The notes beneath the pieces are model-generated. The model did no database searches. It had not been told where the DNA came from and saw nothing but the letters and a program-made list of their open reading frames with translations. The translations under genes were made by a program, and so were the position numbers. 27,388 bases of DNA. Source: a virus. The stretch is from positions 1 through 27,388 of the IMG/VR virus record IMGVR_UViG_3300005288_000029, one strand, 5' to 3'. Shown piece by piece: positions 10,985 to 18,982 of the stretch (positions are counted from its first letter, which is position 1; each line of letters begins with the position of its first letter).

Positions 10985-11014
10985 TCGCAAGTAAAACATG
11001 TATTATAATGAGAA
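10985..11014 (+). promoter_or_regulatory. Array promoter 1
   Basis: TCGCA at 10985, ACA at 10996-10998 and TATAAT at 11004-11009, followed by GAGAAC. It starts 7 nt after the holin stop and drives the 94-aa gene at 11033. Confidence 0.75.
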
Positions 11015-11032
11015 CTCTTGAAAGGAGAAATC

Positions 11033-11317
11033 ATGTTTAAAAAAGACACCAACACTGCCGGACTCGAAAAGGTCATTGGCCTTGTAACTGCCGAACTCGA
11101 AAAGGCCACGCCCGGTACTGAAGAGTTTGCCAAGATTGCTGAACAGCTTGAACGCCTCAACAAGATCGCCTCCACACGGAAGAGCGAACCTGTTAGCGCA
11201 AACGCTATCATCGCAGTCATCGGCAACCTCCTCGGTATCGGACTGATCATCAGAACAGAACAGTTCAATGTCATCACCACGAAAGCCATTGGCTTTGTTG
11301 GTAAATTCCGATCTTAA
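11033..11317 (+). CDS. One-TM conserved phage protein (94 aa)
   Basis: The start is ATG 11033, 9 nt after a GAAAGGAG ribosome binding site; a TTG at 11018 would place the RBS inside the gene and is rejected. Residues 9-50 are helical and charged. Residues about 57-73 (AIIAVIGNLLGIGLII) form a membrane segment, followed by 'FNVITTKAIGFVGK'. I have seen the combination GNLLGI then NV(I/V)T.KA(L/I)GFV in unnamed proteins of other Gram-positive phages. It is the first array unit, directly after the holin. Function unknown; a membrane anchor or assembly factor is possible. Confidence 0.8.
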   Translation: MFKKDTNTAGLEKVIGLVTAELEKATPGTEEFAKIAEQLERLNKIASTRKSEPVSANAIIAVIGNLLGIGLIIRTEQFNVITTKAIGFVGKFRS

Positions 11318-11354
11318 CATGACCCCATCTTAATACAGAACATCAAAATAGGAG

Positions 11355-11399
11355 CCGTGTGTAAGGATTAAAAACCCTTACACACGGTTTCTTATTTTT
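11355..11399 (+). terminator. Terminator of array unit 1
   Basis: A perfect 12-bp stem (CCGTGTGTAAGG at 11355-11366, complement at 11376-11387) with a 9-nt A-rich loop is followed by TTTCTTATTTTT. Its stem and loop differ from those of all the later array terminators. Confidence 0.88.
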
Positions 11400-11460
11400 G
11401 TCTACATGCCCTCCTTTTCTTTCCCAAAAAATGCCCGGGGGGAATTCCTGACAAAACAAT

Positions 11461-11490
11461 TCGCAGGGTTTACACGGGGTATAGTGAGAA
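11461..11490 (+). promoter_or_regulatory. Array promoter 2
   Basis: TCGCA at 11461, ACA at 11472-11474 and TATAGT at 11480-11485, then GAGAAC. It drives the 69-aa gene at 11513. The spacer ends in GGGG rather than the usual CC. Confidence 0.8.
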
Positions 11491-11512
11491 CCCCTACTAA
11501 CAAAGGAACCCC

Positions 11513-11722
11513 ATGAAAAAGTTTAAGAAATCTTACATCAAAGTCGAAGACCTCCGGTCCGATGACCACATCAAGGTTGCTGGAATCTTGTACCGCGTTA
11601 ACCGAATCGAAATTATCGGTGACGCGTACCTGATCCAGTTCCGAAATGTACGTCGTCCGCTCGTGCCGGGTCTGCTGACCTTCGAGAAGAATACCCTTAT
11701 GACCATCTGGAACCCGAAGTAA
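11513..11722 (+). CDS. Small beta-rich protein (69 aa)
   Basis: ATG follows an AAAGGAAC ribosome binding site. The basic start MKKFKKSYIK is followed by 'VEDLRSDDHIKVAGILYRVN', alternating beta segments and no membrane segment. The layout (D-x-I, short hairpin, Y/W-x-V, hydrophobic strand) resembles the 69-aa product of the gene at 13982 and suggests a small SH3-like barrel, possibly nucleic-acid or peptide binding. Identity between the two is low, so paralogy is only suggested. Own promoter and terminator. Confidence 0.75.
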   Translation: MKKFKKSYIKVEDLRSDDHIKVAGILYRVNRIEIIGDAYLIQFRNVRRPLVPGLLTFEKNTLMTIWNPK

Positions 11723-11730
11723 CCCTCAAG

Positions 11731-11761
11731 CTAGGAGAGCCTACAAGCCCTCCTAGTTTTT
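11731..11761 (+). terminator. Terminator of array unit 2
   Basis: Stem CTAGGAG/CTCCTAG (7 bp, 11731-11737 and 11750-11756), 12-nt loop AGCCTACAAGCC, then TTTTT. This is a G-C version of a stem that is A-T in most other units. Confidence 0.85.
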
Positions 11762-11763
11762 CC

Positions 11764-11793
11764 TCGCAGAAATTACAAGGGATATTATGAGAA
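11764..11793 (+). promoter_or_regulatory. Array promoter 3
   Basis: TCGCA at 11764, ACA at 11775-11777 and TATTAT at 11783-11788, then GAGAAG. It is the only copy with TATTAT. It drives the 73-aa gene at 11825. Confidence 0.75.
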
Positions 11794-11824
11794 GAAACAC
11801 TACAATTTTAAGGAATCAAAAACC

Positions 11825-12046
11825 ATGAAAGCTATTGAAAACACCTTCAACGCCATTGCAATCGCACTCGCCGTTGTCATCATCACTATCGCAACCCTCT
11901 TTATCGCCAATGGCGGTACAGTAAAGGTATACGAGAAGTCGCTGGTGAACAACGTCGCAGTGCCCCTCCACGCAATGATTGATGGAAAACAGCACCACAT
12001 GTTTGAAAACCCGAATGTCATTCTCGACATCAGCTACAACAAGTAG
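11825..12046 (+). CDS. One-TM small protein (73 aa)
   Basis: The ATG follows TTAAGGAATCAAAAACC, a weaker RBS than in the other units and about 9 nt from the start. A membrane helix spans about residues 10-28 (AIAIALAVVIITIATLFIA), followed by a 45-residue polar domain with KQHHMFENP. The N-terminus is short and likely cytoplasmic, so the C-terminal domain may be outside the cell. No family recognised. Single-gene transcription unit with its own terminator. Confidence 0.75.
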   Translation: MKAIENTFNAIAIALAVVIITIATLFIANGGTVKVYEKSLVNNVAVPLHAMIDGKQHHMFENPNVILDISYNK

Positions 12047-12051
12047 CATAG

Positions 12052-12080
12052 ATGGGAATCCCACACGGATTCTCATTTTT
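12052..12080 (+). terminator. Terminator of array unit 3
   Basis: Stem ATGGGAATCC paired with GGATTCTCAT (12052-12061, 12067-12076; 10 bp, one G-T), loop CACAC, then a T-tract that overlaps the stem end. Confidence 0.82.
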
Positions 12081-12083
12081 GTC

Positions 12084-12113
12084 TCGCATAATTTACAAGG
12101 GGTATAGTGAGAA
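12084..12113 (+). promoter_or_regulatory. Array promoter 4
   Basis: TCGCA at 12084, ACA at 12095-12097 and TATAGT at 12103-12108, then GAGAAG. It drives the 31-aa gene at 12139. Confidence 0.8.
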
Positions 12114-12138
12114 GTTAACCACTATGAAAGGTACTACA

Positions 12139-12234
12139 TTGACTCAGAACCAGAACGATAACATCCTCCTGCACCTCGAATGGGAAACCAAATTCGCTGC
12201 AGCAGTTGTTACCGCCGGTATGACCAAGAAGTAA
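12139..12234 (+). CDS. 31-residue microprotein, TTG start
   Basis: The start TTG 12139 is chosen because GAAAGG lies 7 nt upstream, the spacing seen in sister units. An ATG at 12124 overlaps that RBS in the same frame and would give 36 residues. The sequence begins MTQNQNDNILLHLEWETKF and ends with a short hydrophobic patch and KK. It has its own promoter and terminator, which argues that it is expressed despite its size. No family recognised. Confidence 0.6.
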   Translation: MTQNQNDNILLHLEWETKFAAAVVTAGMTKK

Positions 12235-12254
12235 CTACTAGCAATACCCCTCAA

Positions 12255-12285
12255 TTAGGAGAGCCTACAAGCCCTTCTAATTTTT
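12255..12285 (+). terminator. Terminator of array unit 4
   Basis: Stem TTAGGAG/CTTCTAA (7 bp with one G-T; 12255-12261, 12274-12280), loop AGCCTACAAGCC, then TTTTT leading directly into the next TCGCA. Confidence 0.85.
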
Positions 12286-12314
12286 CGCACATTTTACATG
12301 TCCTATAGTGAGAA
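12285..12314 (+). promoter_or_regulatory. Array promoter 5
   Basis: TCGCA at 12285, ACA at 12296-12298 and TATAGT at 12304-12309, then GAGAAT. It drives the 75-aa gene at 12340. Confidence 0.8.
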
Positions 12315-12339
12315 TTAACCCCTAGAAAGGATCATTAAA

Positions 12340-12567
12340 ATGACCGAAACTGTTAACGTCCCGTACCTGTACATGGAGACGCTCACGCTCATTAACCGCA
12401 CCGAAGAACGCCTTCTGGACTCCCCCAATCCCATCACCCGATCGGATCTCAAGGAGCTCGGACTGCTTCACCGGAAAGCGGCTAACTACCGTGAGTCGAT
12501 CTTCAAGTCTTGGAATCGAGCCGAAAAGCCCAAAACGTCATTCTTTAAGAAACTATTCTGGATCTAA
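12340..12567 (+). CDS. Small helical protein (75 aa)
   Basis: The ATG follows AGAAAGGATCATTAAA. No membrane segment. It is mostly helical and charged ('METLTLINRTEERLLDSPNP', then 'SDLKELGLLHRKAANYRES') with a basic-aromatic C-terminus 'TSFFKKLFWI'. The 89-aa product of the gene at 13137 has a comparable layout and ends 'LKKTFWQKLLRK', so the two may be diverged copies. The amphipathic C-terminus could contact membrane. Function unknown. Confidence 0.75.
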   Translation: MTETVNVPYLYMETLTLINRTEERLLDSPNPITRSDLKELGLLHRKAANYRESIFKSWNRAEKPKTSFFKKLFWI

Positions 12568-12574
12568 TATCCAG

Positions 12575-12605
12575 CTAGAAGAGCCTACAAGCCCTTCTAG
12601 TTTTT
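12575..12605 (+). terminator. Terminator of array unit 5
   Basis: Stem CTAGAAG/CTTCTAG (12575-12581, 12594-12600), loop AGCCTACAAGCC, then TTTTT. Confidence 0.85.
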
Positions 12606-12606
12606 C

Positions 12607-12636
12607 TCGCAAGAATTACACACATTATAATGAGAA
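12607..12636 (+). promoter_or_regulatory. Array promoter 6
   Basis: TCGCA at 12607, ACA at 12618-12620 and TATAAT at 12626-12631, then GAGAAG. It drives the 59-aa gene at 12664. Confidence 0.8.
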
Positions 12637-12663
12637 GTTAACCCCCTATTAAGGAGTAATATC

Positions 12664-12843
12664 ATGACTGCACGCCCCAACCGCGCTGTCCGCACTCTCG
12701 CCTCCATCGTCCTGATCCCCAAGATCGCACTGGATCTGCCCAAAGCAGCCATCCAAAGCGTCAAGGATTTCAACGAAGATGTTCGCGAAGAGGTGGACTT
12801 CCGCAAGAAGCTTGCCACTGAATATGCCCGCAACAAGGCTTAA
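12664..12843 (+). CDS. Small protein (59 aa)
   Basis: The ATG follows AAGGAGTAATATC. The sequence is MTARPNRAVRTLASIVLIPK, then a short hydrophobic to amphipathic part and a charged helix 'VKDFNEDVREEVDFRKK'. The hydrophobic part (about 11-30) is interrupted by K20, D24 and K27, so it is not a convincing transmembrane helix; peripheral membrane binding is possible. Codon use is GC-rich like its neighbours. Own promoter and terminator. No family recognised. Confidence 0.72.
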   Translation: MTARPNRAVRTLASIVLIPKIALDLPKAAIQSVKDFNEDVREEVDFRKKLATEYARNKA

Positions 12844-12850
12844 CCCCAAA

Positions 12851-12880
12851 ATGAGAATCCCACAAAGATTCTCATTTTTT
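12851..12880 (+). terminator. Terminator of array unit 6
   Basis: Stem ATGAGAATC/GATTCTCAT (12851-12859, 12867-12875), loop CCACAAA, then TTTTTT. The flanking AAA can extend the stem into the T-tract. The same stem and loop recur at 14419. Confidence 0.85.
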
Positions 12881-12909
12881 CGCACGATAAACATGCCCTA
12901 TAATGAGAA
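12880..12909 (+). promoter_or_regulatory. Array promoter 7
   Basis: TCGCA at 12880, ACA at 12891-12893 and TATAAT at 12899-12904, then GAGAAG. It drives the 32-aa gene at 12935. Confidence 0.8.
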
Positions 12910-12934
12910 GATAATCCCTATGAAAGGATCTACC

Positions 12935-13033
12935 ATGTTTAAGAACGCCCTCGCCCTGCCCATTCGCTTTGTTGCTAATATCAAAGCCCGAATCGAACAG
13001 CAGCGAACCCTCGTAAACATCATGACCGACTAG
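12935..13033 (+). CDS. 32-residue microprotein
   Basis: The ATG follows GAAAGGATCTACC, the standard array leader. The product MFKNALALPIRFVANIKARI continues with a short polar end (VNIMTD last). It looks like one amphipathic basic helix. It has its own promoter and terminator. A longer reading from an upstream ATG in another unit's position would run across the promoter and is rejected. Function unknown. Confidence 0.62.
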   Translation: MFKNALALPIRFVANIKARIEQQRTLVNIMTD

Positions 13034-13045
13034 CACTATCACCCG

Positions 13046-13076
13046 AATGAGGGGCCCCACAAGGCCTCTTATTTTT
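13046..13076 (+). terminator. Terminator of array unit 7
   Basis: Stem AATGAGGGGCC/GGCCTCTTATT (11 bp with two G-T pairs; 13046-13056, 13063-13073), loop CCACAA, then a T-tract. Confidence 0.85.
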
Positions 13077-13082
13077 GCCTTT

Positions 13083-13112
13083 TCGTAGGATCTACATGTC
13101 CTATAGTGAGAA
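13083..13112 (+). promoter_or_regulatory. Array promoter 8
   Basis: TCGTA (variant) at 13083, ACA at 13094-13096 and TATAGT at 13102-13107, then GAGAAC. It drives the 89-aa gene at 13137. Confidence 0.78.
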
Positions 13113-13136
13113 CTAACCCCTATGAAAGGATTTACT

Positions 13137-13406
13137 ATGAACACGTCAACCAAAGCATTCGATGCCAATTGGGAACGCCGTAGAGATGTCGTCCTCGCAC
13201 TCGCTGAAGCTGAAGAGCTTATGCTGCACTATGCAAAGAAAGATGAAAACCACCCCTTGTTGGGTAGTTGTCAGATTCGTGTTGTAGAGTGGCAGTATAC
13301 ACTCTATCAGCTTAATAAGGAGTTCGAAGCGATGATTACCTACAGCGTCGACCAAGGCATACCAATGCTGAAGAAGACATTCTGGCAGAAACTGCTAAGG
13401 AAGTAA
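13137..13406 (+). CDS. Small helical protein (89 aa)
   Basis: The start ATG 13137 lies 7 nt after GAAAGG; the in-frame ATG 13122 overlaps that RBS. It is a soluble, mainly helical protein: 'NWERRRDVVLALAEAEELML', then 'VVEWQYTLYQLNKEFEAM', ending with 'MLKKTFWQKLLRK'. Its layout and basic-aromatic tail resemble the 75-aa product at 12340. One Cys (about residue 45) is present. No known family. Own promoter and terminator. Confidence 0.78.
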   Translation: MNTSTKAFDANWERRRDVVLALAEAEELMLHYAKKDENHPLLGSCQIRVVEWQYTLYQLNKEFEAMITYSVDQGIPMLKKTFWQKLLRK

Positions 13407-13410
13407 TCGA

Positions 13411-13441
13411 AATAGGAGGCCTACAAAGCCTTCTATTTTTT
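13411..13441 (+). terminator. Terminator of array unit 8
   Basis: Stem AATAGGAGGC/GCCTTCTATT (10 bp with one G-T; 13411-13420, 13428-13437), loop CTACAAA, then T-tract. Confidence 0.85.
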
Positions 13442-13470
13442 CGCAGGGATAACATATCCTATAGTGAGAA
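13441..13470 (+). promoter_or_regulatory. Array promoter 9
   Basis: TCGCA at 13441, ACA at 13452-13454 and TATAGT at 13460-13465, then GAGAAC. It drives the 37-aa gene at 13489. Confidence 0.8.
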
Positions 13471-13488
13471 CCCTACGAAAGGAAATAT

Positions 13489-13602
13489 ATGAGTAAAGTC
13501 AAGACATACTATCAACAACACAAGAACGATTTTGTAACAATCGAAGTCTACCTTCTGTTCGTAGCTAGTCTATCTGCCTTCGCATATATCGCTGTACAAT
13601 AA
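13489..13602 (+). CDS. 37-residue one-TM microprotein
   Basis: The ATG follows GAAAGGAAATAT. The polar, basic N-terminus MSKVKTYYQQHKNDF is followed by a membrane helix at about 17-36 (IEVYLLFVASLSAFAYIAV) that ends one residue before the C-terminus. By the positive-inside rule the N-terminus should be cytoplasmic. Own promoter and terminator. Such short membrane proteins may be regulators of larger membrane complexes, but no function can be read here. Confidence 0.7.
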   Translation: MSKVKTYYQQHKNDFVTIEVYLLFVASLSAFAYIAVQ

Positions 13603-13610
13603 GTTCCAAG

Positions 13611-13643
13611 AATAGGAGAGCCTACAAGCCCTCCTATTTTTTT
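13611..13643 (+). terminator. Terminator of array unit 9
   Basis: Stem AATAGGAG/CTCCTATT (8 bp; 13611-13618, 13631-13638), loop AGCCTACAAGCC, then a long T-tract. Compared with units 2 and 5 the stem pairs have changed on both sides. Confidence 0.85.
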
Positions 13644-13672
13644 CGCACGCATTACACACCCTATAGTGAGAA
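13643..13672 (+). promoter_or_regulatory. Array promoter 10
   Basis: TCGCA at 13643, ACA at 13654-13656 and TATAGT at 13662-13667, then GAGAAC. It drives the 65-aa gene at 13693. Confidence 0.8.
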
Positions 13673-13692
13673 CCCCTATGAAAGGAAATATC

Positions 13693-13890
13693 ATGACATC
13701 CCCCCTTATCGTTGAACTCGAAAAGGCTACTGACGACGAAATTAAAGTCGCGAGTAACAAGATGGCTAAGCTCCTCACCATGAAAATCGTCATTGGTGTG
13801 GTCGCTAGCGTCATCGTACACTTCGCCTCCGAAGCAATCGTCGGTGCCATCGAAAACCGAAAGAATGACCATGAACTAACCGAAGAATAG
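13693..13890 (+). CDS. One-TM small protein (65 aa)
   Basis: The start ATG 13693 lies 8 nt after GAAAGG. An in-frame GTG inside the promoter at 13666 is rejected. The acidic N-terminus (VELEKATDDEIKVASNK) leads to a membrane helix at about 30-52 (KIVIGVVASVIVHFASEAIV) and a charged tail ENRKNDHELTEE. The N-terminal 'ELEKAT..E' resembles part of the 94-aa protein at 11033, but that may be chance. Own promoter and terminator. Confidence 0.76.
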   Translation: MTSPLIVELEKATDDEIKVASNKMAKLLTMKIVIGVVASVIVHFASEAIVGAIENRKNDHELTEE

Positions 13891-13899
13891 CCCCTCAAG

Positions 13900-13930
13900 C
13901 TAGAAGAGCCTACAAGCCCTTCTAGTTTTT
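13900..13930 (+). terminator. Terminator of array unit 10
   Basis: Stem CTAGAAG/CTTCTAG (13900-13906, 13919-13925), loop AGCCTACAAGCC, then TTTTT running into the next TCGCA. Confidence 0.85.
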
Positions 13931-13959
13931 CGCACTCAATACATGCCTTATAGTGAAAC
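13930..13959 (+). promoter_or_regulatory. Array promoter 11
   Basis: TCGCA at 13930, ACA at 13941-13943 and TATAGT at 13949-13954. The following bases are GAAAC rather than GAGAA. It drives the 69-aa gene at 13982. Confidence 0.76.
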
Positions 13960-13981
13960 CCACCACTATGAAAGGCATATG

Positions 13982-14191
13982 ATGAACTCTACTATTGAAG
14001 TTCCCGCTATCGACATTCTTATTGGAGACACTATTGAATTTAATCACAAAGTTTGGACAGTCACATTCGTAACATTAGTACGAGGCACAATTGTCGAAAT
14101 TTCAGTTAAAGAAAAAGGTCTTCATGCCAGAATGACTCGTGAGGACAAATTAATGGTTCACAAAAACGCCACCGTAACCAAGGTGAACTAA
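13982..14191 (+). CDS. Small beta-rich protein (69 aa), possible SH3-like barrel
   Basis: Two adjacent in-frame ATGs occur at 13979 and 13982; the second has the better distance (6 nt) from GAAAGG. No membrane segment. 'VPAIDILIGDTIEFNHKVW' followed by 'TVTFVTLVRGTIVEISV' suggests five or so beta strands; the tail has 'MTREDKLMVHKNATV'. The layout is like that of the 69-aa product at 11513. This gene is more AT-rich than its neighbours (ATT, GAA and AAA codons), a possible sign of separate origin. Own promoter and terminator. Confidence 0.75.
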   Translation: MNSTIEVPAIDILIGDTIEFNHKVWTVTFVTLVRGTIVEISVKEKGLHARMTREDKLMVHKNATVTKVN

Positions 14192-14192
14192 T

Positions 14193-14223
14193 GAGGAGGC
14201 CCTAACAAGGCCTTCTCTTTTTT
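14193..14223 (+). terminator. Terminator of array unit 11
   Basis: Stem GAGGAGGCC/GGCCTTCTC (9 bp with one G-T; 14193-14201, 14209-14217), loop CTAACAA, then TTTTTT. Confidence 0.85.
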
Positions 14224-14225
14224 AT

Positions 14226-14255
14226 TCGCAAGATTTACACATCCTATAGTGAGAA
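14226..14255 (+). promoter_or_regulatory. Array promoter 12
   Basis: TCGCA at 14226, ACA at 14237-14239 and TATAGT at 14245-14250, then GAGAAC. It drives the 43-aa gene at 14279. Confidence 0.8.
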
Positions 14256-14278
14256 CCCCTACTATCAAAGGAACTACC

Positions 14279-14410
14279 ATGCTCAGAAAATACTCTGTTT
14301 GGAATTTCATCCTCGATGCCCTACTCGTCCTGATCACAGGAGGATTCTGGTTCATCTGGATTGGAATTCGTGAACTCCGTAATCTGGCAAATAGCCGCCA
14401 CCGCTACTAG
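14279..14410 (+). CDS. 43-residue one-TM microprotein
   Basis: The ATG follows CAAAGGAACTACC. The sequence has a basic start (MLRKYSVWN), a membrane helix at about 10-30 with the motif LITGGFWFIWIGI, and a basic tail (RELRNLANSRHRY). The pattern D-x-x-L-x-x-x-T-GG-x-W-x-x-W-x-x-IR is familiar from short unnamed membrane proteins of actinobacteria and their phages. Own promoter and terminator. Function unknown. Confidence 0.75.
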   Translation: MLRKYSVWNFILDALLVLITGGFWFIWIGIRELRNLANSRHRY

Positions 14411-14418
14411 CCCCTCAG

Positions 14419-14448
14419 ATGAGAATCCCACAAAGATTCTCATTTTTT
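14419..14448 (+). terminator. Terminator of array unit 12
   Basis: Stem ATGAGAATC/GATTCTCAT (14419-14427, 14435-14443), loop CCACAAA, then TTTTTT; same stem and loop as at 12851. Confidence 0.85.
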
Positions 14449-14477
14449 CGCTAGAATAACACACCCTATAGTGAGAA
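14448..14477 (+). promoter_or_regulatory. Array promoter 13
   Basis: TCGCT (variant) at 14448, ACA at 14459-14461 and TATAGT at 14467-14472, then GAGAAC. It drives the 85-aa gene at 14500. Confidence 0.78.
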
Positions 14478-14499
14478 CCCCTACTAACAAAGGAACACT

Positions 14500-14757
14500 A
14501 TGAAAACTCGCACTTTTACCAAAAATCTCATCGTACACACCCCGCCGACCAAAGAATCCCTCAAAAAGGCTTTTACCGCATACAAACCTAAATCATTCAA
14601 AGACTTTATAGTCATTTGTATGGTGAACGCAACTGCTGTCGACGCCGCCAAAAAGGGTTGGCTTGATCGACCGGGTACCTACGAAATCTCAGATATTTGG
14701 TTCAGTAAAGAAACGAGCTGGAACAAAGTGATCTGCCGAGTACGCAAGATCTCATAA
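14500..14757 (+). CDS. Small soluble protein (85 aa)
   Basis: The ATG follows CAAAGGAACACT. There is no membrane segment. The N-terminal part is basic ('TFTKNLIVHTPPTKESLKKA'); the middle has 'FIVICMVNATAVDAAKKGW'; the end, 'YEISDIWFSKETSWNKVICR', is likely beta-stranded. A compact alpha/beta fold is plausible. It contains two Cys residues. No family recognised. Own promoter and terminator. Confidence 0.76.
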   Translation: MKTRTFTKNLIVHTPPTKESLKKAFTAYKPKSFKDFIVICMVNATAVDAAKKGWLDRPGTYEISDIWFSKETSWNKVICRVRKIS

Positions 14758-14761
14758 CCCG

Positions 14762-14791
14762 ATAAGGGGCCCCACAAGGCCTCTTATTTTT
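14762..14791 (+). terminator. Terminator of array unit 13
   Basis: Stem ATAAGGGGCC/GGCCTCTTAT (10 bp with one G-T; 14762-14771, 14778-14787), loop CCACAA, then T-tract. Confidence 0.85.
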
Positions 14792-14794
14792 CCT

Positions 14795-14824
14795 TCGCAC
14801 GCATTACACACCCTATAGTGAGAA
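14795..14824 (+). promoter_or_regulatory. Array promoter 14
   Basis: TCGCA at 14795, ACA at 14806-14808 and TATAGT at 14814-14819, then GAGAAC. Identical to promoter 10 from TCGCA through the -10 box. It drives the 87-aa gene at 14848. Confidence 0.8.
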
Positions 14825-14847
14825 CCCCCTCAACGAAAGGAACTGAA

Positions 14848-15111
14848 ATGAAGAAATTCAAGATGAAGCCCGAAACCAAGGAAAAGCTGAAGAACGTCTG
14901 GATCGAAGCTTCGCCCTTTGTGATGCCCCTCGTTGCAGGTGTCGTTGGAGTCCTCTACATCTATTCAAAAGGTGTGGAGACCTCCAATGAGCACTATGCA
15001 GCATCGCTCAATCGCAAGGATGAAGCCTACGAAGCCATGACCGACCGAACAGCCGCCTCCACGGAACGGTTGAACCACGATATCCTCACAAGGATCGTCC
15101 CCAACGAGTAA
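14848..15111 (+). CDS. One-TM small protein (87 aa)
   Basis: The start ATG 14848 lies 8 nt after GAAAGG; the in-frame GTG at 14818 inside the promoter is rejected. A highly basic N-terminus (MKKFKMKPETKEKLKN) is followed by a membrane helix at about 22-40 (SPFVMPLVAGVVGVLYIY). The C-terminal 45 residues ('RKDEAYEAMTDRTAASTERL') are helical and charged. The C-terminal domain is probably outside the cytoplasm. Own promoter and terminator. Confidence 0.78.
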   Translation: MKKFKMKPETKEKLKNVWIEASPFVMPLVAGVVGVLYIYSKGVETSNEHYAASLNRKDEAYEAMTDRTAASTERLNHDILTRIVPNE

Positions 15112-15122
15112 ATCTCAAGAAG

Positions 15123-15153
15123 CTAGAAGAGCCCACAAGCCCTTCTAGTTTTT
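15123..15153 (+). terminator. Terminator of array unit 14
   Basis: Stem CTAGAAG/CTTCTAG (15123-15129, 15142-15148) with loop AGCCCACAAGCC (one base differs from the usual 12-nt loop), then TTTTT. Confidence 0.85.
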
Positions 15154-15155
15154 CT

Positions 15156-15185
15156 TCGCATATTCTACATGTCCTATAGTGAGAA
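15156..15185 (+). promoter_or_regulatory. Array promoter 15
   Basis: TCGCA at 15156, ACA at 15167-15169 and TATAGT at 15175-15180, then GAGAAG. It drives the 78-aa gene at 15211. Confidence 0.8.
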
Positions 15186-15210
15186 GTTAACCCCTATGAA
15201 AGGTAATACC

Positions 15211-15447
15211 ATGAACCTCAAAAAAGACATCAAAGATATCGGCTACCTGCTGATCACCCCCGTCCCCGCAAAGTACCACTTTGAAGGCGTCAACAACCAG
15301 CGTGCAGCGCGACAACTCACAGTTGTCAGCATTGCGCTCCCCCTCGTTGCCACCGTCATCGCCGTATACGCACCGGTCGTGATCGACAAGGTCCGTAATC
15401 TGAAAGTCCCTTTTGAAATTGGACCGATTTACTGGAATAAGAAGTAA
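15211..15447 (+). CDS. One-TM small protein (78 aa)
   Basis: The start ATG 15211 lies 8 nt after GAAAGG. The N-terminal 35 residues are polar to amphipathic (MNLKKDIKDIGYLLITPVPA), then a membrane helix at about 36-57 (TVVSIALPLVATVIAVYAPVV) and a tail with LKVPFEIGPIYWNKK. Own promoter and terminator. No family recognised. Confidence 0.77.
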   Translation: MNLKKDIKDIGYLLITPVPAKYHFEGVNNQRAARQLTVVSIALPLVATVIAVYAPVVIDKVRNLKVPFEIGPIYWNKK

Positions 15448-15456
15448 CACCTCAAG

Positions 15457-15487
15457 CTAGAAGAGCCTACAAGCCCTTCTAGTTTTT
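15457..15487 (+). terminator. Terminator of array unit 15
   Basis: Stem CTAGAAG/CTTCTAG (15457-15463, 15476-15482), loop AGCCTACAAGCC, then TTTTT. Confidence 0.85.
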
Positions 15488-15490
15488 GCC

Positions 15491-15520
15491 TCGCATATTT
15501 TACACACCCTATAGTGAGAA
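15491..15520 (+). promoter_or_regulatory. Array promoter 16
   Basis: TCGCA at 15491, ACA at 15502-15504 and TATAGT at 15510-15515, then GAGAAC. It drives the 56-aa gene at 15544. Confidence 0.8.
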
Positions 15521-15543
15521 CCCCTACTAACAAAGGAAACACT

Positions 15544-15714
15544 ATGAAAACCCTCATGAACCTCGACAATGCCCCCGTAACGGTATCCGAAGTCGTCAAG
15601 TCGGCTGGCTCATCGTTCGCGAAATCAATCGCAATCGAAGCCACCGTCATTGTCGGCCTCTATACCGCCTACTGGATCATGTCAGCCGTGAAGGACTCCA
15701 AGAAGTCCAAGTAA
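15544..15714 (+). CDS. One-TM small protein (56 aa)
   Basis: The ATG follows CAAAGGAAACACT; the in-frame GTG at 15514 is part of the promoter. The N-terminal 28 residues are polar (TVSEVVKSAGSSFAKS), followed by a membrane helix at about 29-49 (IAIEATVIVGLYTAYWIMSAV) and a lysine-rich end DSKKSK. The basic C-terminus suggests it lies in the cytoplasm. Own promoter and terminator. Confidence 0.74.
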   Translation: MKTLMNLDNAPVTVSEVVKSAGSSFAKSIAIEATVIVGLYTAYWIMSAVKDSKKSK

Positions 15715-15722
15715 CACTCGAG

Positions 15723-15753
15723 CTAGAAGAGCCTACAAGCCCTTCTAGTTTTT
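15723..15753 (+). terminator. Terminator of array unit 16
   Basis: Stem CTAGAAG/CTTCTAG (15723-15729, 15742-15748), loop AGCCTACAAGCC, then TTTTT joining the next TCGTA. Confidence 0.85.
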
Positions 15754-15782
15754 CGTAGAATATACATGTCCTATAGTGAGAA
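15753..15782 (+). promoter_or_regulatory. Array promoter 17
   Basis: TCGTA (variant) at 15753, ACA at 15764-15766 and TATAGT at 15772-15777, then GAGAAC. It drives the 61-aa gene at 15807. Confidence 0.78.
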
Positions 15783-15806
15783 CTAACCCCTAACAAAGGA
15801 CATACC

Positions 15807-15992
15807 ATGACCGCCAAGACATCTACCCAGCACGCTGAAGAACTTGCGATGCTCCTGCACAAACTCGCCGACCTGATCGATTCCGATCCGACCAAGGTTG
15901 AGTGGAAAGAAATGCAGAAGATAGCTCGATACTTCTGGCAGGGATGCCTTATTGGACGCCTTATGGCATTTAAAGAACGTAAAAGGAAGTAA
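15807..15992 (+). CDS. Small helical protein (61 aa)
   Basis: The ATG follows CAAAGGACATACC. It is a soluble-looking helical protein: 'AEELAMLLHKLADLIDSDPT', then 'VEWKEMQKIARYFWQGCLIG' and a strongly basic C-terminus (RLMAFKERKRK). Two amphipathic helices joined by an SDPTK turn; the basic tail could bind nucleic acid. No family recognised. Own promoter and terminator. Confidence 0.74.
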   Translation: MTAKTSTQHAEELAMLLHKLADLIDSDPTKVEWKEMQKIARYFWQGCLIGRLMAFKERKRK

Positions 15993-15996
15993 TCAA

Positions 15997-16029
15997 AATA
16001 GGAGGCCCTAACAAGGCCTCTTATTTTTT
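15997..16029 (+). terminator. Terminator of array unit 17
   Basis: Stem AATAGGAGGCC/GGCCTCTTATT (11 bp with one G-T; 15997-16007, 16015-16025), loop CTAACAA, then TTTTTT overlapping the next TCGCA. Confidence 0.86.
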
Positions 16030-16058
16030 CGCAGGTATTACACACCCTATAGTGAGAA
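16029..16058 (+). promoter_or_regulatory. Array promoter 18
   Basis: TCGCA at 16029, ACA at 16040-16042 and TATAGT at 16048-16053, then GAGAAG. It drives the 78-aa gene at 16085. Confidence 0.8.
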
Positions 16059-16084
16059 GTACCCCCACTAACAAAGGAAACATC

Positions 16085-16321
16085 ATGTTCAAGAATCACA
16101 AACTGGAACTGAAGCTTGTCAAGAACCGCAATCAGGATGAACTGGTTGATGCCACCCCGTCTGTCACGAAAGAAGACATCGTTCACATCGCAAAGAACGT
16201 TGCCAAATTCGTCATCGGAGGAGTGCTCATCACCATGGCAGCCGGTGCAGCTCTCGACACCGCTCAGTACGCAGCAATGACTCGTATCGACAAGAAGAAC
16301 TCCCGAGAACTGGAAAACTAA
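16085..16321 (+). CDS. One-TM small protein (78 aa)
   Basis: The ATG follows CAAAGGAAACATC. The basic N-terminus (MFKNHKLELKLVKNRN) is followed by an acidic stretch (QDELVDATPSVTKEDIVHIAK), a membrane helix at about 42-60 (FVIGGVLITMAAGAALDTA) and a charged tail (DKKNSRELEN). Own promoter and terminator. No family recognised. Confidence 0.76.
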   Translation: MFKNHKLELKLVKNRNQDELVDATPSVTKEDIVHIAKNVAKFVIGGVLITMAAGAALDTAQYAAMTRIDKKNSRELEN

Positions 16322-16327
16322 TCCAAG

Positions 16328-16357
16328 ATAAGGGGCCCGCAAGGCCTCTTATTTTTT
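16328..16357 (+). terminator. Terminator of array unit 18
   Basis: Stem ATAAGGGGCC/GGCCTCTTAT (16328-16337, 16343-16352) with a shortened loop CGCAA, then TTTTTT joining the next TCGTG. Confidence 0.85.
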
Positions 16358-16386
16358 CGTGAGTTTTACATGCCCTATAATGAGAA
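16357..16386 (+). promoter_or_regulatory. Array promoter 19
   Basis: TCGTG (variant) at 16357, ACA at 16368-16370 and TATAAT at 16376-16381, then GAGAAC. It drives the 73-aa gene at 16406. Confidence 0.76.
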
Positions 16387-16405
16387 CTCCTATGAAAGGA
16401 TCGAC

Positions 16406-16627
16406 ATGTTTTTCGATGATATGGATGACCTGTTCTACAAGATTTGGAGAGAGATATTTAGTCAAGAAGCTATAGCATTACCGCTAAAGAAACGACACGA
16501 TATTCAGACCCGACATGTCTTGAAGAACACCGCCCGTCACACAACACGTCCTCTATTCAACAAGCGACTATCGAAAGGAAGGGCCCCGCGTGGGCTTTCC
16601 TTTTCGCAAAATTTACATGTCCTATAA
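16406..16627 (+). CDS. Small protein whose 3' end contains a terminator and a promoter (73 aa)
   Basis: The ATG 16406 lies 6 nt after GAAAGGA. The N-terminus is acidic and aromatic (MFFDDMDDLFYKIWREIF); from residue 28 it is basic (KKRHDIQTRHVLKNTARH). Residues about 57-67 are encoded by a terminator hairpin (16574-16604). The last residues, NLHVL, are encoded by the promoter at 16604, and the stop TAA lies inside its TATAAT. The reading is therefore partly forced by regulatory DNA: the gene may have extended after losing an earlier stop, or the terminator may be weak. No family recognised. Confidence 0.6.
   Translation: MFFDDMDDLFYKIWREIFSQEAIALPLKKRHDIQTRHVLKNTARHTTRPLFNKRLSKGRAPRGLSFSQNLHVL
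16574..16604 (+). terminator. Terminator inside the 3' end of the 73-aa gene
   Basis: Imperfect stem: AAAGGAA/TTCCTTT (7 bp) and GCCC/GGGC (4 bp) separated by a small internal loop, with a CGCGT loop, then TTTT into the next TCGCA. It lies before the stop codon of the gene it would terminate. Confidence 0.65.
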
Positions 16628-16633
16628 TGAAAG
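16604..16633 (+). promoter_or_regulatory. Array promoter 20
   Basis: TCGCA at 16604, ACA at 16615-16617 and TATAAT at 16623-16628; then GAAAGG instead of GAGAA. The TAA at 16625-16627 is also a stop codon. No convincing gene follows, so it is assigned to the RNA at 16635. Confidence 0.75.
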
Positions 16634-16634
16634 G

Positions 16635-16770
16635 AGTGTAAAACTAATGGAGGCGGTATCCAACCCGCTAATATAGTCCATCCCTGCTGCCCAATTAACA
16701 ACGGCAACATCACGCCCTTTCACTGAGAAGACCACCTGCTATTCGTAAGAGTACCAGACCTTCTCTTTTT
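16635..16770 (+). ncRNA. Candidate small RNA 1 (about 136 nt)
   Basis: The unit has a promoter (-10 at 16623) and ends in a terminator-like hairpin at 16725-16770, but no ORF longer than 9 codons (ATG at 16647, MEAVSNPLI) lies between. Visible pairings: GCGG/CCGC, TGCC/GGCA, and in the last hairpin GAGAAG/CTTCTC enclosing CTG-TATTC / GAG-TA-CAG with a GTAA loop. Start site assumes +1 seven bases after the -10 box. The 9-codon frame has an AAAGGAG upstream that is transcribed only if transcription starts earlier, so a tiny peptide is not excluded. Together with the next leader this fills the roughly 300-base gap between genes. Function unknown. Confidence 0.5.
16725..16770 (+). terminator. Terminator of small RNA 1
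   Basis: GAGAAG (16725-16730) pairs with CTTCTC (16760-16765), enclosing an inner hairpin with a GTAA loop, followed by TTTTT. The wide interior makes it less certain than the array terminators. Confidence 0.6.
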
Positions 16771-16771
16771 C

Positions 16772-16801
16772 TCGCAAGAATTACATGCCCTATAATGAGA
16801 A
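16772..16801 (+). promoter_or_regulatory. Array promoter 21
   Basis: TCGCA at 16772, ACA at 16783-16785 and TATAAT at 16791-16796, then GAGAAG. It drives a 125-nt structured leader and the 102-aa gene at 16928. Confidence 0.8.
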
Positions 16802-16802
16802 G

Positions 16803-16927
16803 AAAGGTTAGGTACTGGCGAGGCCTAATAAGCATTGCCCCCGAAACCACCGCAAGGTGCGACAAATAGTTAATCACCTTTCTCCTCAACACCCCCTATA
16901 TTTTTTGCCTAACCAAGGAGACGTCCC
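16803..16927 (+). promoter_or_regulatory. Structured 125-nt leader RNA upstream of the 102-aa gene
   Basis: No credible start codon with RBS lies here. GGTTAGGTA (16806-16814) can pair with TGCCTAACC (16906-16914; 9 bp, one G-T), directly before the SD AAGGAG at 16915-16920. The same 5' strand (AAAGGT, 16803-16808) can instead pair with ACCTTT (16876-16881), so the two stems exclude each other. A CACC-GCAA-GGTG hairpin with a GNRA loop sits at 16848-16859 and GGCGA/TTGCC can pair at about 16817-16838. Mutually exclusive stems next to an SD are typical of riboswitch-like or attenuator leaders. A T-tract at 16901-16906 has no stem immediately before it. It could also be processed into a stable RNA. 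Confidence 0.5.
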
Positions 16928-17236
16928 GTGTCTGAAGAACTTAAGAAGCGTATTGATGGCGTAATGGCCGATAGCCAAAAGCGAACTGCCGCCGAGATGG
17001 ACCTGTATATTCTCCGATTCTTTGGGGATAAGGCGACCTTCGAAGAGTTCGCACACCTCTATATTTTGGAAGTGATCCATCCCAGCGAGTTTGAAACCAT
17101 GCAGAGCAATGATTTGTTTGCGGATAATTTGGAGTATAAGATCCGCATTACGACTACCTATCGCCTCCGTCGAAAGACCCAAGCTGAGCTGGCCAAAGAA
17201 GTGGTCGAGACCTCGCAGGAATTACATGCCCTATAA
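16928..17236 (+). CDS. Small helical protein under a structured leader (102 aa)
   Basis: The GTG start follows AAGGAG by 7 nt. It is charged and mostly helical ('ELKKRIDGVMADSQKRTAAE', then 'KATFEEFAHLYILEVIHPSE', then 'YRLRRKTQAELAKEVVETSQ'). No membrane segment and no family recognised. The last residues ELHAL are encoded by the following promoter and the stop TAA (17234-17236) lies inside its TATAAT. In contrast to the array genes it has a long structured 5' leader and no terminator of its own before the next promoter. Confidence 0.72.
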   Translation: MSEELKKRIDGVMADSQKRTAAEMDLYILRFFGDKATFEEFAHLYILEVIHPSEFETMQSNDLFADNLEYKIRITTTYRLRRKTQAELAKEVVETSQELHAL

Positions 17237-17242
17237 TGAGAG
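17213..17242 (+). promoter_or_regulatory. Array promoter 22, embedded in the end of a gene
   Basis: TCGCA at 17213, ACA at 17224-17226 and TATAAT at 17232-17237, then GAGAG. It lies wholly or almost wholly in the coding sequence of the 102-aa gene and supplies its stop codon. Confidence 0.76.
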
Positions 17243-17263
17243 AGTACACTTAGAGATAAGTCG

Positions 17264-17297
17264 AAGAGCCTGTAGCAATACATGCACTCTTATTTTT
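17264..17297 (+). terminator. Terminator/attenuator between promoter 22 and the 57-aa gene
   Basis: AAGAG/CTCTT (5 bp) and TGTA/TACA (4 bp) with one inner C-G pair, a small bulge and a GCAA loop, followed by ATTTTT. It ends only about 54 nt after the expected transcription start, before any gene, so transcription from promoter 22 would give a very short RNA unless it reads through to the gene at 17323. Confidence 0.7.
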
Positions 17298-17322
17298 CAT
17301 GTCTTTTGAAAGGAGACAAACG

Positions 17323-17496
17323 ATGTTTCGCTGGTACAAGTTAATTCCAAAAGGCGCGTATGTTGAAGTGCAAACTTCGGGGCCTAAGGTGCCTTGGTCT
17401 ACGGAAAAACGGCAATATCGAAACCGAGGTGAAAAGGCTTTTCACCTCGGTAAGTACCGGATCGTATGGGGTCGTCCAAGGATGTCGCAGAAATAA
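17323..17496 (+). CDS. Small basic protein (57 aa)
   Basis: The start ATG 17323 lies 7 nt after GAAAGGAG. A longer in-frame reading from 17299 includes the RBS and is rejected. The product is basic (MFRWYKLIPKGAYVEVQTSG, later 'KAFHLGKYRIVWGRP') and lacks a membrane segment; a small beta-rich fold is likely. A perfect 13-bp inverted repeat (17423-17451) lies inside the gene. The stop is inside the next promoter element. No family recognised. Confidence 0.65.
   Translation: MFRWYKLIPKGAYVEVQTSGPKVPWSTEKRQYRNRGEKAFHLGKYRIVWGRPRMSQK
17423..17451 (+). repeat. Perfect 13-bp inverted repeat inside the 57-aa gene
   Basis: ACCGAGGTGAAAA (17423-17435), a 3-nt spacer GGC and its exact complement (17439-17451). 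No T-tract follows, so it is not an ordinary terminator. It could be an operator, an mRNA hairpin or the trace of an inversion. Confidence 0.8.
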
Positions 17497-17514
17497 CATG
17501 GCCTATAATGAGAA
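17485..17514 (+). promoter_or_regulatory. Array promoter 23
   Basis: TCGCA at 17485, ACA at 17496-17498 and TATAAT at 17504-17509, then GAGAAG. Its first half lies in the end of the 57-aa gene. It drives a leader RNA and the DUF6353-like gene at 17617. Confidence 0.78.
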
Positions 17515-17515
17515 G

Positions 17516-17592
17516 AAGACCCCCATCACGAGCTACTAGCGAATGGTATGGGTCCGCGTAGAGAAAGACTACATCTTCTCATTCTTTTTTTT
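17516..17592 (+). ncRNA. Candidate small RNA / attenuated leader (about 77 nt)
   Basis: After promoter 23 no RBS-linked ORF occurs until 17617. GACCC/GGGTC (17518-17522, 17550-17554) encloses CCAT/ATGG; a second hairpin GAGAA-A-GA/TCTTCTC (17561-17568, 17574-17580) has a CTACA loop and is followed by eight Ts (17585-17592). Most transcripts would end here as a 77-nt RNA; read-through gives the DUF6353-like protein. A 24-codon reading from ATG 17543 has no RBS. Confidence 0.5.
17561..17592 (+). terminator. Attenuator-type terminator before the first DUF6353-like gene
   Basis: Seven base pairs with one bulged A, loop CTACA similar to the array terminators, then ATTC and an eight-T tract at 17585-17592. 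It lies between promoter 23 and the SD GAAAGG of the gene at 17617. Confidence 0.72.
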
Positions 17593-17616
17593 GACTCTTG
17601 AAAGGTTACCCATCTG

Positions 17617-18375
17617 ATGATACGACTAGCTCGCTACGCTGGGGCAGCAAAGAAGCTTGTCGCTGATAACTCACCGGCAGTCTTGACCGCTGTTGCAGTT
17701 GTGGGTGTTGTTACTACTGCGATTCTCGTAGCGAAGGCAGCACCTAAAGCACACATTGATCTCGCAAATGAGGAATCCGAACGTCCCGGAGAAGCAGACC
17801 TGACCGATAAGGTACTCCTCACCTACCGGTATTACATCCCGGCTGTTGCCGTAGGAACCGCAACAATCGCTTGCATTATCGGTGCAAACACCATCAGTAC
17901 TAAACGGAGTGCAGCTCTGGCAAGTGCCTACGGCCTTACCGAACTAGCATTCAAGGAATATCGTGAGAAGGCTATCGAGGTAATCGGCGAAGCCAAGGAA
18001 ACGAAGATCCATGATGAAGTCATGAAAGACGTTGTGGATCGTGTCCCGGAGTCCTCACAGATCTTCATGACTGATGGCGGCAAACAGCTCTTCCTCGATC
18101 GCCATACAGAGCGTCTATTCGAAAGCGACATGGAGTCTGTTCGCGGGGCTGTGAATGACATTAACGAGGTCATTTATAGTGACATGTATGCCTCTCTGAA
18201 CGACTTCTACAGACTGCTTGGCATTCCCACCAGCACAGTTGGTGAGGAGCTTGGTTGGACTACTGACGTTCCACTCAAGGTCCGATATTCCGCACAGCTC
18301 CATCAGGGTAAGCGACCCGTCGTGGTTGTTGACTTCGAGAAGGCACCCGTTCGTGATTACAACAGGTTCGGATAA
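17617..18375 (+). CDS. DUF6353-like membrane protein, copy 1
   Basis: The product has 252 residues. The ATG follows GAAAGG with 11 nt spacing. Two membrane segments at about 21-43 (SPAVLTAVAVVGVVTTAILV) and 72-93 (YYIPAVAVGTATIACIIGAN) flank a short polar loop. A C-terminal soluble part carries 'SLNDFYRLLGIPTSTVGEELG', matching 'FLNDVYKCLGIPATPAGQVVG' of the larger protein at 22212. The pattern fits the DUF6353 family, common in phages of Gram-positive bacteria and of unknown function. It is the first gene after the array and lies behind an attenuator. The 3' end overlaps the next gene by 23 bases. Confidence 0.78.
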   Translation: MIRLARYAGAAKKLVADNSPAVLTAVAVVGVVTTAILVAKAAPKAHIDLANEESERPGEADLTDKVLLTYRYYIPAVAVGTATIACIIGANTISTKRSAALASAYGLTELAFKEYREKAIEVIGEAKETKIHDEVMKDVVDRVPESSQIFMTDGGKQLFLDRHTERLFESDMESVRGAVNDINEVIYSDMYASLNDFYRLLGIPTSTVGEELGWTTDVPLKVRYSAQLHQGKRPVVVVDFEKAPVRDYNRFG

Positions 18376-18553
18376 CCCCAAAGAGCCTGATTTGGAAGTG
18401 ACTAATGTCGGGGAGGCCTTAGCTGGACAATTTCTTAAAGAACTGTCTATAGCTGTAGGTCTCCCTGCATCGGTCTGTGAAATCCTTCTAAAATCCGGAT
18501 GGGCTCTCGAAATGGATATGAATGCGCCTACTAGATGGGTACGAAGGCTATAA
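18353..18553 (+). CDS. Small protein overlapping the DUF6353-like gene (66 aa)
   Basis: The GTG start at 18353 (AAGG 9 nt upstream) is the best supported one; TTG or GTG codons shortly after (about 18391-18400) are alternatives. The frame differs from the overlapping DUF6353-like gene. The sequence has an acidic N-terminus, then 'EALAGQFLKELSIAVGLPAS' and CEILLKSGW, and ends RWVRRL. No family recognised. Its stop directly abuts the next ATG. An ATG at 18218 would extend it deep into the previous gene and is not used. Confidence 0.6.
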   Translation: MITTGSDNPKEPDLEVTNVGEALAGQFLKELSIAVGLPASVCEILLKSGWALEMDMNAPTRWVRRL

Positions 18554-18745
18554 ATGTCACGCCCAGTAGCCGACTCGCCCACATATTTGGGCGATCGATT
18601 CTATATCGAAATTCCGAATGCGAACGTGACAGGCTGGTTGATTCACAAAATCAGCATGAATATCATCGACCATCAAAAGCATATCGATGGGATGATCGCT
18701 GCTGGAAACACCAACTTCCGAGAGCGTAAAACCTCGCGGGAATAA
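18554..18745 (+). CDS. Small protein (63 aa)
   Basis: The ATG follows the previous stop without a gap (TAAATG) and has only a weak RBS (GAAGG 10 nt upstream), so translation is probably coupled. It is a soluble alpha/beta-looking protein with 'YIEIPNANVTGWLIHKISMN' and then 'DHQKHIDGMIAAGNTNFRER'. The end overlaps promoter 24: the TCGCG element is inside the gene and the stop lies just before the ACA. No family recognised. Confidence 0.66.
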   Translation: MSRPVADSPTYLGDRFYIEIPNANVTGWLIHKISMNIIDHQKHIDGMIAAGNTNFRERKTSRE

Positions 18746-18763
18746 CACACCCTATAATGACAC
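18734..18763 (+). promoter_or_regulatory. Array promoter 24 (last copy)
   Basis: TCGCG (variant) at 18734, ACA at 18745-18747 and TATAAT at 18753-18758, then GACAC instead of GAGAA. It drives the 64-aa gene at 18788. I find no further copy of this motif downstream. Confidence 0.72.
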
Positions 18764-18787: not shown

Positions 18788-18982
18788 ATGATCAAGAAGA
18801 TCACTACCCTCGTCACCACCAACCGCAACGTCATCGCCCGAAAGGCTTTGCTCGTAGGAGGAATTGCCCTCGGCCTCGTAGCCGGAGCACTCCTCGTCAA
18901 GCCCGAAAGCGAGATCGTCATCGTTGGTGAGACGGTGGAAGAAGACGAACTGACCACCGACTCGTCCTCCGAAGAAAACTAG
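18788..18982 (+). CDS. One-TM small protein with acidic tail (64 aa)
   Basis: The ATG follows CTTGAAAGGATAATC. A basic N-terminus (MIKKITTLVTTNRNVIARK) leads to a membrane helix at about 20-37 (ALLVGGIALGLVAGALLV) and a strongly acidic tail ending in VEEDELTTDSSSEEN. The charge distribution suggests N-in, C-out. It is a single-gene unit between promoter 24 and a strong terminator, and so an outlying member of the array. Function unknown. Confidence 0.78.
   Translation: MIKKITTLVTTNRNVIARKALLVGGIALGLVAGALLVKPESEIVIVGETVEEDELTTDSSSEEN

Follow-up and report, generated by a model that had tools for sequence, protein, structure and literature searches.

Gapless promoter-like arrays in a phage record and a candidate single-chain two-barrel RNA polymerase that may read them

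We analyzed a stretch of 27,388 nucleotides (nt), hereafter the window, taken from a virus record of 27,655 bases (IMGVR_UViG_3300005288_000029). It contains an array of 24 gapless, promoter-like sites of 30 bp, arranged in cassettes of a promoter, a small open reading frame (ORF) or non-coding RNA (ncRNA), and a terminator. Judged from their layout and the selection on them, the 24 sites are very probably promoters, as an earlier note on this DNA had proposed. We consider it probable that they serve a phage-encoded single-chain two-barrel RNA polymerase (PHROG 4291) and not a host sigma factor. Promoter function, the recognizing enzyme, the start site and the timing of expression are what we infer here.

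Results

A single rigid motif

The pattern TCG-N8-ACA-N5-TATNNT matched 24 times in the window, always on the plus strand (10985-18758), whereas 100 shuffled windows gave a mean of 0.05 matches and no shuffle gave more than one. A low-threshold position-weight matrix scan of both strands returned the same 24 sites and no others. No variation is seen in the columns of TCG, ACA, TAT, the box's final T and the GA after it; position 5 of the box is A or G in 24 of 24 sites, and the bases between the motif elements are variable. TCGCA is found in 19 of the 24 sites and GAGAA follows the box in 20; the box is spelled TATAGT (14 sites), TATAAT (9) or TATTAT (1). The counts of the earlier note (24 copies, invariant TCG and ACA, CGCA, box types, GAGAA) were all correct on recount.

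Pooled over 13 genomes, the combination TCGC/ACA/TATNNTGA occurred 117 times with one spacing. The other spacings were due to ACACA overlap or were single cases, and no reverse-strand occurrence was found in these genomes. Such a single rigid gapless unit is what a phage-polymerase promoter should look like. Because the spacer bases vary while the core columns are fixed, plain recent duplication is insufficient as an explanation. The identical spacing also recurs in phages with unrelated small genes, supporting the view, already taken in the earlier note, that the sites are kept by selection and not by recent duplication alone.

Arrays in related phages

A scan of viral contigs for the core pattern hit at least 120 stretches, many with arrays of up to 22 sites. 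The earlier note had proposed a matrix scan of the whole phage, its relatives and host genomes; arrays of this kind, with identical rigid spacing, were found in phages of Arthrobacter, Gordonia, Rhodococcus, Streptomyces, Curtobacterium and Microbacterium, in an oral phage, and in the Lactococcus phages 1706 (for example TTTCGCATGTTTTACATATACTATAGTAGAAAG) and P078 (for example TTTTACATACCCTATAATGARAG). The strict pattern misses variant arrays such as those of 1706 and RosaAsantewaa, so exact-pattern counts are lower bounds. The polymerase-bearing phages tested in detail, which include G049, G051, L130, Pepy6, P078, Lewando, Tatanka, RosaAsantewaa and 1706, carry 6-26 sites each in the same gapless layout. 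When the search was begun from the polymerase, iterated matrices gave 21 sites in G049, 26 in G051, 15 in G053, 26 in G054, 11 in G055 and 9 in G061; Pepy6 (17 sites) and P078 (10) had the same layout. Four fresh test phages, Vardy, AddiRose, DizzyRudy and D_HF5_2C (Gordonia, Curtobacterium, Microbacterium, saliva), all had both the array and the polymerase family. Across host phyla, and in sequences of 32 to 59% G+C, the phages keep ACA, the 5-nt spacer, the box and the purine run. A megablast of the array against phages gave no match, and a search for plasmid relatives found none.

In Lewando, Pepy6, G049 and G051, sites also stand before the operon of VRR-Nuc, exonuclease and polymerase. 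None was seen before structural genes in the relatives, except a doubtful match in Pepy6 at 29031. In 257 Gb of GTDB cellular genomes, the full motif was present in 12 stretches, which is close to chance (about 15 by our estimate); use of the motif by the hosts' own genes is not borne out. The one array found there lies in the 4.1-kb contig L212 (QHXL01000552.1), binned as an Acidobacteria metagenome-assembled genome, which has four motif copies and is probably a phage contig.

The candidate recognizer

Every complete array-bearing phage examined encodes one protein of about 900 amino acids (aa) belonging to PHROG 4291, named gp106 in Pepy6 and gp75 in phage 1706. The family is present in 250 phage records. 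Its PHROG label is 'RNA-dependent RNA polymerase', and its members are usually annotated as 'helix-turn-helix DNA-binding protein', 'hypothetical protein' or 'RNA-dependent RNA polymerase' (for example L135 650-3280 and L228 2016-4718). The last large gene of RosaAsantewaa, annotated as a helix-turn-helix (HTH) protein, matches PHROG 4291 end to end (1337 bits); its product has HTH matches at both ends and the motif SGADFDGDTVLV. The sequence GADFDGD is invariant in 18 of 18 aligned proteins, which places the DxDGD metal-binding motif in all of them. An AlphaFold2 model (predicted local distance difference test, pLDDT, 75) matched QDE-1 (Foldseek E 2.6e-8, probability 1.00; Z 12.2 over 354 residues) and P23-45 gp64 (Z 11.0), and plant RDR2 also matched. 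The predicted fold is that of a two-barrel (double-psi beta-barrel, DPBB) RNA polymerase like QDE-1 and P23-45 gp64.

Phages that carry the motif should also encode the polymerase, and the relatives do; in the case of the window, the gene lies outside the fragment, which is why the earlier note named no recognizer. We measured the linkage in 50 records, mostly picked through motif matches, 35 of which have PHROG 4291. It is present in 28 of the 32 records with at least two exact sites versus 7 of the 18 with fewer (Fisher p 8e-4). In G003, G016, G031 and G045, the four exceptions, the exonuclease gene that neighbors the polymerase is missing too, and these records were likely cut short. Two of the seven records with the polymerase but fewer than two exact sites, 1706 (G023) and RosaAsantewaa, have arrays of variant sites.

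Besides the polymerase, the proteins common to all nine genomes comprise structural, replication and repair proteins and proteins of unknown function; the polymerase is the only one of them with HTH or transcription domains. Directly after the polymerase gene lies an 80-aa PHROG 4303 protein (L168 26267-26509), a possible partner with homologues in nine of the nine genomes. Phage 1706 gp47 (L223 12499-13155) is annotated 'putative positive regulator of sigma' and is not among the genes found common to all relatives.

The box and the -35 position

A scan of the region for TTGACA-N16-18-TATAAT gave 13 promoter-like sites against 10.8 in shuffles, with no excess, and only two of the 13 coincide with the 24. 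The position where a -35 element would lie is T-rich because a hairpin and T-tract directly precede 19 of the 24 sites (two of these folds are weaker). These results bear out the earlier note, which had seen no shared TTGACA, had placed the T-tract of the preceding terminator at -35 in most copies and had called the motif unusual for a housekeeping sigma factor. The sites could still be unusual host SigA promoters without any dedicated factor, their extra conservation coming from recent cassette copying and the terminator context. The cassettes do resemble repeated units and the box is similar to a sigma -10 box. We regard this explanation as very improbable, given a -35 position not above chance, one spacing in all 117 pooled sites, spacers that vary while TCG and ACA are fixed, and a full motif that occurs in cellular genomes only at chance.

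The TATAAT-like box, with A at position 2 (A2) and T at position 6 (T6), is present throughout the window sites. In some relatives A2 is lost, the box reading TTAAAT, TTATAT or TTTAAT. The frequency of A2 is 0.33 in RosaAsantewaa and 0.36 in G055, and T6 is kept. RosaAsantewaa retains TCGCA, ACA and ATGAGAC and has lost A2 in four of six sites. When 225 sites from 15 genomes are taken together, the purine at box position 5 and the C of ACA are essentially constant. As far as such comparisons of sequence go, the loss of A2 does not suit a sigma -10 box. It also qualifies the numbering '-31 to -2' of the earlier note: the gapless unit stands, but the numbers presuppose that TATRRT is a sigma -10 box.

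A second possibility with the host enzyme is sigma appropriation, in which RNA polymerase with SigA would use TATRRT as its -10 box and a MotA-like phage activator bound at TCGCA/ACA would replace the -35 contact. The box is TATAAT or TATAGT in most copies, the upstream element is at about the right position, and the motif of Gordonia phage Vardy was published as a sigma-70 promoter (PMC9671010). Against it, the nine genomes share no small DNA-binding protein and no sigma factor among their common proteins, although three of these are of unknown function; A2 is lost in RosaAsantewaa and G055; and the layout is nearly unchanged across host phyla. We consider sigma appropriation unlikely.

Cassette anatomy

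In 20 sites, a ribosome-binding sequence and the start codon of a small ORF follow 23-36 nt after the box. The ORFs of these 20 coding cassettes have 31-94 aa, and nine have a membrane-like segment. In the list below, TM-like stands for transmembrane-like. The array, its sites and an example terminator are as follows.

10985-18763, plus strand: array of 24 gapless promoter-like sites in cassettes of promoter, small ORF or ncRNA, and terminator
10985-11014, plus strand: site 1, before ORF 11033-11317
11461-11490, plus strand: site 2, before ORF 11513-11722
11730-11757, plus strand: example terminator hairpin of the kind preceding 19 of 24 sites, with its T-tract at the would-be -35
11764-11793, plus strand: site 3 (TATTAT box), before ORF 11825-12046 (TM-like)
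12084-12113, plus strand: site 4, before ORF 12139-12234 (TTG start)
12285-12314, plus strand: site 5, before ORF 12340-12567
12607-12636, plus strand: site 6, before ORF 12664-12843
12880-12909, plus strand: site 7, before ORF 12935-13033
13083-13112, plus strand: site 8, before ORF 13137-13406
13441-13470, plus strand: site 9, before ORF 13489-13602 (TM-like)
13643-13672, plus strand: site 10, before ORF 13693-13890 (TM-like)
13930-13959, plus strand: site 11, before ORF 13979-14191
14226-14255, plus strand: site 12, before ORF 14279-14410 (TM-like)
14448-14477, plus strand: site 13, before ORF 14500-14757
14795-14824, plus strand: site 14, before ORF 14848-15111 (TM-like)
15156-15185, plus strand: site 15, before ORF 15211-15447 (TM-like)
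15491-15520, plus strand: site 16, before ORF 15544-15714
15753-15782, plus strand: site 17, before ORF 15807-15992
16029-16058, plus strand: site 18, before ORF 16085-16321 (TM-like)
16357-16386, plus strand: site 19, before ORF 16406-16627
16604-16633, plus strand: site 20, at the start of a predicted ncRNA
16772-16801, plus strand: site 21, at the start of a predicted ncRNA
17213-17242, plus strand: site 22, overlapping the end of ORF 16928-17236, at the start of a predicted ncRNA
17485-17514, plus strand: site 23, at the start of a predicted ncRNA
18734-18763, plus strand: site 24, before ORF 18788-18982 (TM-like)

Many intergenic copies in one direction are also typical of stoperators, and the repeats might be binding sites of a phage repressor or genome-organizing protein and not promoters at all. 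The fixed distance of 23-36 nt to the ribosome-binding sequence and start codon, the AT-rich box, and the fact that sites directly follow terminators and stand at the 5' end of structured RNAs argue against such a role, which is the least probable of the explanations considered.

The window ORFs 17617-18375 and 22212-23183 are two PHROG 2152 paralogues in one genome. The protein of the former has relatives in Arthrobacter, Gordonia, Streptomyces, Curtobacterium, Rhodococcus and Microbacterium phages. The Pepy6 homologue of the paralogues, gp069, matches Pfam DUF6353, and the family is present in nine of the nine genomes compared.

Structured RNAs and the start site

Sites 20-23 have no ORF directly after them and are followed by 60-140 nt that fold into closed structures. 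In the closing helix, the 5' GAGAA or GAAAG is paired with a 3' arm immediately ahead of the terminator Ts or close by. The four tandem, putatively promoter-driven RNAs (16629-17592), with similar folds in L129, L130 and G049, are listed here.

16629-16770, plus strand: predicted structured ncRNA; 5' GAAAGG pairs with CCTTTC, followed by a terminator hairpin; similar folds in L129 and G049
16797-16905, plus strand: predicted structured ncRNA with a 5'-3' closing helix
17238-17297, plus strand: predicted structured ncRNA; similar folds in L129, L130 and G049
17510-17592, plus strand: predicted structured ncRNA; 5' GAGAAGA pairs with TCTTCTC before the poly-U

The closing helix of the RNA at 17510-17592 is kept, with compensatory changes in an inner stem. 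An Rfam scan at gathering threshold matched none of these ncRNAs to a family. Because the closing helices use the GAGAA after the box, they suggest that the RNA start is closer to the box than with sigma and lies several nt upstream of where a sigma start would be. tRNA-like genes or tRNAs lie directly downstream of the motif in P078 (L166 24012-24090), 1706 (L223 10075-10217) and Pepy6 (L167 41206-41278); those of P078 and 1706 are enclosed by a 5'-3' stem ending in a poly-T tract.

Discussion

We propose that the polymerase reads one rigid 30-bp unit composed of the upstream TCGCA, the middle ACA, and the AT-rich TATRRT followed by GAGAA. Its N- and C-terminal HTH segments are the likely DNA readers. 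RNA would probably begin within or just after the RTG following TATA, and each promoter would drive one small gene or small structured RNA ending at its own terminator. The promoter copies before the polymerase-encoding operon of several relatives would place the polymerase gene in the same system. The enzyme may be carried into the cell in the virion and switch on the small genes early; annotation notes of Pepy6 and Poco6 liken gp106 to gp75 of phage 1706, which they call a structural protein. In its full form, the proposal is that a siphophage lineage of Actinobacteria and Firmicutes injects a two-barrel polymerase whose built-in HTH segments alone recognize the promoter, and which starts RNA next to TATA and activates one-gene cassettes, structured RNAs and its own operon as an orthogonal system. 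We put this forward tentatively, as possible but somewhat short of an even chance.

Several points weigh against recognition by the polymerase. The TATAAT-type box is, in most copies, a perfect sigma -10 box. This fragment lacks the polymerase gene, whose presence in the virus we assume because relatives with such an array have it. Both motif and polymerase belong to the core of a single viral lineage, and their co-occurrence may thus reflect common descent. Sites in diverged genomes were selected by matrix, which inflates their conservation. The 5'-3' pairing, seen at 16 sites, is weakly above permutation (mean 9.4, maximum 15). The predicted template modeling score (pTM) of the AlphaFold2 model is 0.49, and the virion location of the polymerase rests on the annotation note for 1706 gp75.

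If the proposal is true, about 250 sequenced phages carry an unrecognized polymerase-promoter pair, a transcription system obscured by the labels 'HTH protein' and 'RNA-dependent RNA polymerase'. The pair would show where the phages have their early genes. Laboratory phages such as Lewando, Vardy, Pepy6 and 1706 would allow a direct test of the promoter grammar of a two-barrel single-chain polymerase. Promoter reading could be studied in one chain, in a simple relative of cellular RNA polymerase, and the system may provide a compact orthogonal expression tool for actinobacteria.

Comparison with known systems

T7-like promoters are gapless units of about 20-30 bp with TATA near the start and a purine-rich start, and the TATAGTGAGA found here is similar to their TATAGGGAGA. 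This TATAGTGAGA prompted us to consider a T7-type polymerase; the one found belongs to the two-barrel DFDGD kind, making the resemblance of the boxes convergent at most. No T7-type Pfam match was obtained on the polymerase and eight other shared or flanking proteins, whole genomes not being scanned for such a gene. The middle promoters of T4 (MotA/AsiA) have a -10 box without a -35 and a conserved element near -30; here, no MotA-like common protein was found in the nine genomes and the layout crosses host phyla. The virion polymerases of N4, crAss-like phages and P23-45 are injected with the virion for early expression.

YonO of SPbeta is a single-chain RNA polymerase whose promoter sequence was reported as undetermined (PMC5467207). 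It shares with PHROG 4291 the single chain, the DxDGD motif and specificity for phage genes, but it transcribes late genes as one operon and has no detectable sequence relationship; as a homologue it was rejected (hhalign probability 0.1), and the region upstream of SPbeta yonK has no such motif.

In Gordonia cluster DJ phage Vardy, five copies of a 50-bp intergenic motif with a 'TATAAT -10 sigma-70' box and a translation start were described among membrane-protein genes (PMC9671010), and the cluster DJ motif was also reported for Mossy, in association with rearrangements (PMC11008172). We found the same motif in Vardy at eight sites (for example CCTCGCATATATTACACGTCCTATAATGAGAC), within the corresponding stretch of small genes in the middle of the genome, and gene 89 occupies the place of the polymerase. 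Those accounts differ from ours in making no tie to a phage polymerase, to rigid upstream elements or to other phage groups. No prior link between motif and phage polymerase was found in the open-licence literature, a scope that does not include the original 1706 and Pepy6 papers.

In Thermus phage P23-45, the virion RNA polymerase (vRNAP) gp96 and the non-virion RNA polymerase (nvRNAP) gp64 have their own short promoter motifs before early genes, mapped by sequencing (PMC10770324). Its motifs are AT-rich or GC-rich and its polymerase architecture differs, whereas here nearly every array gene has its own copy, as seen in the sequence. Like the polymerase predicted here, those of P23-45 are single-chain two-barrel phage enzymes, and gp64 is a structural match to our predicted model.

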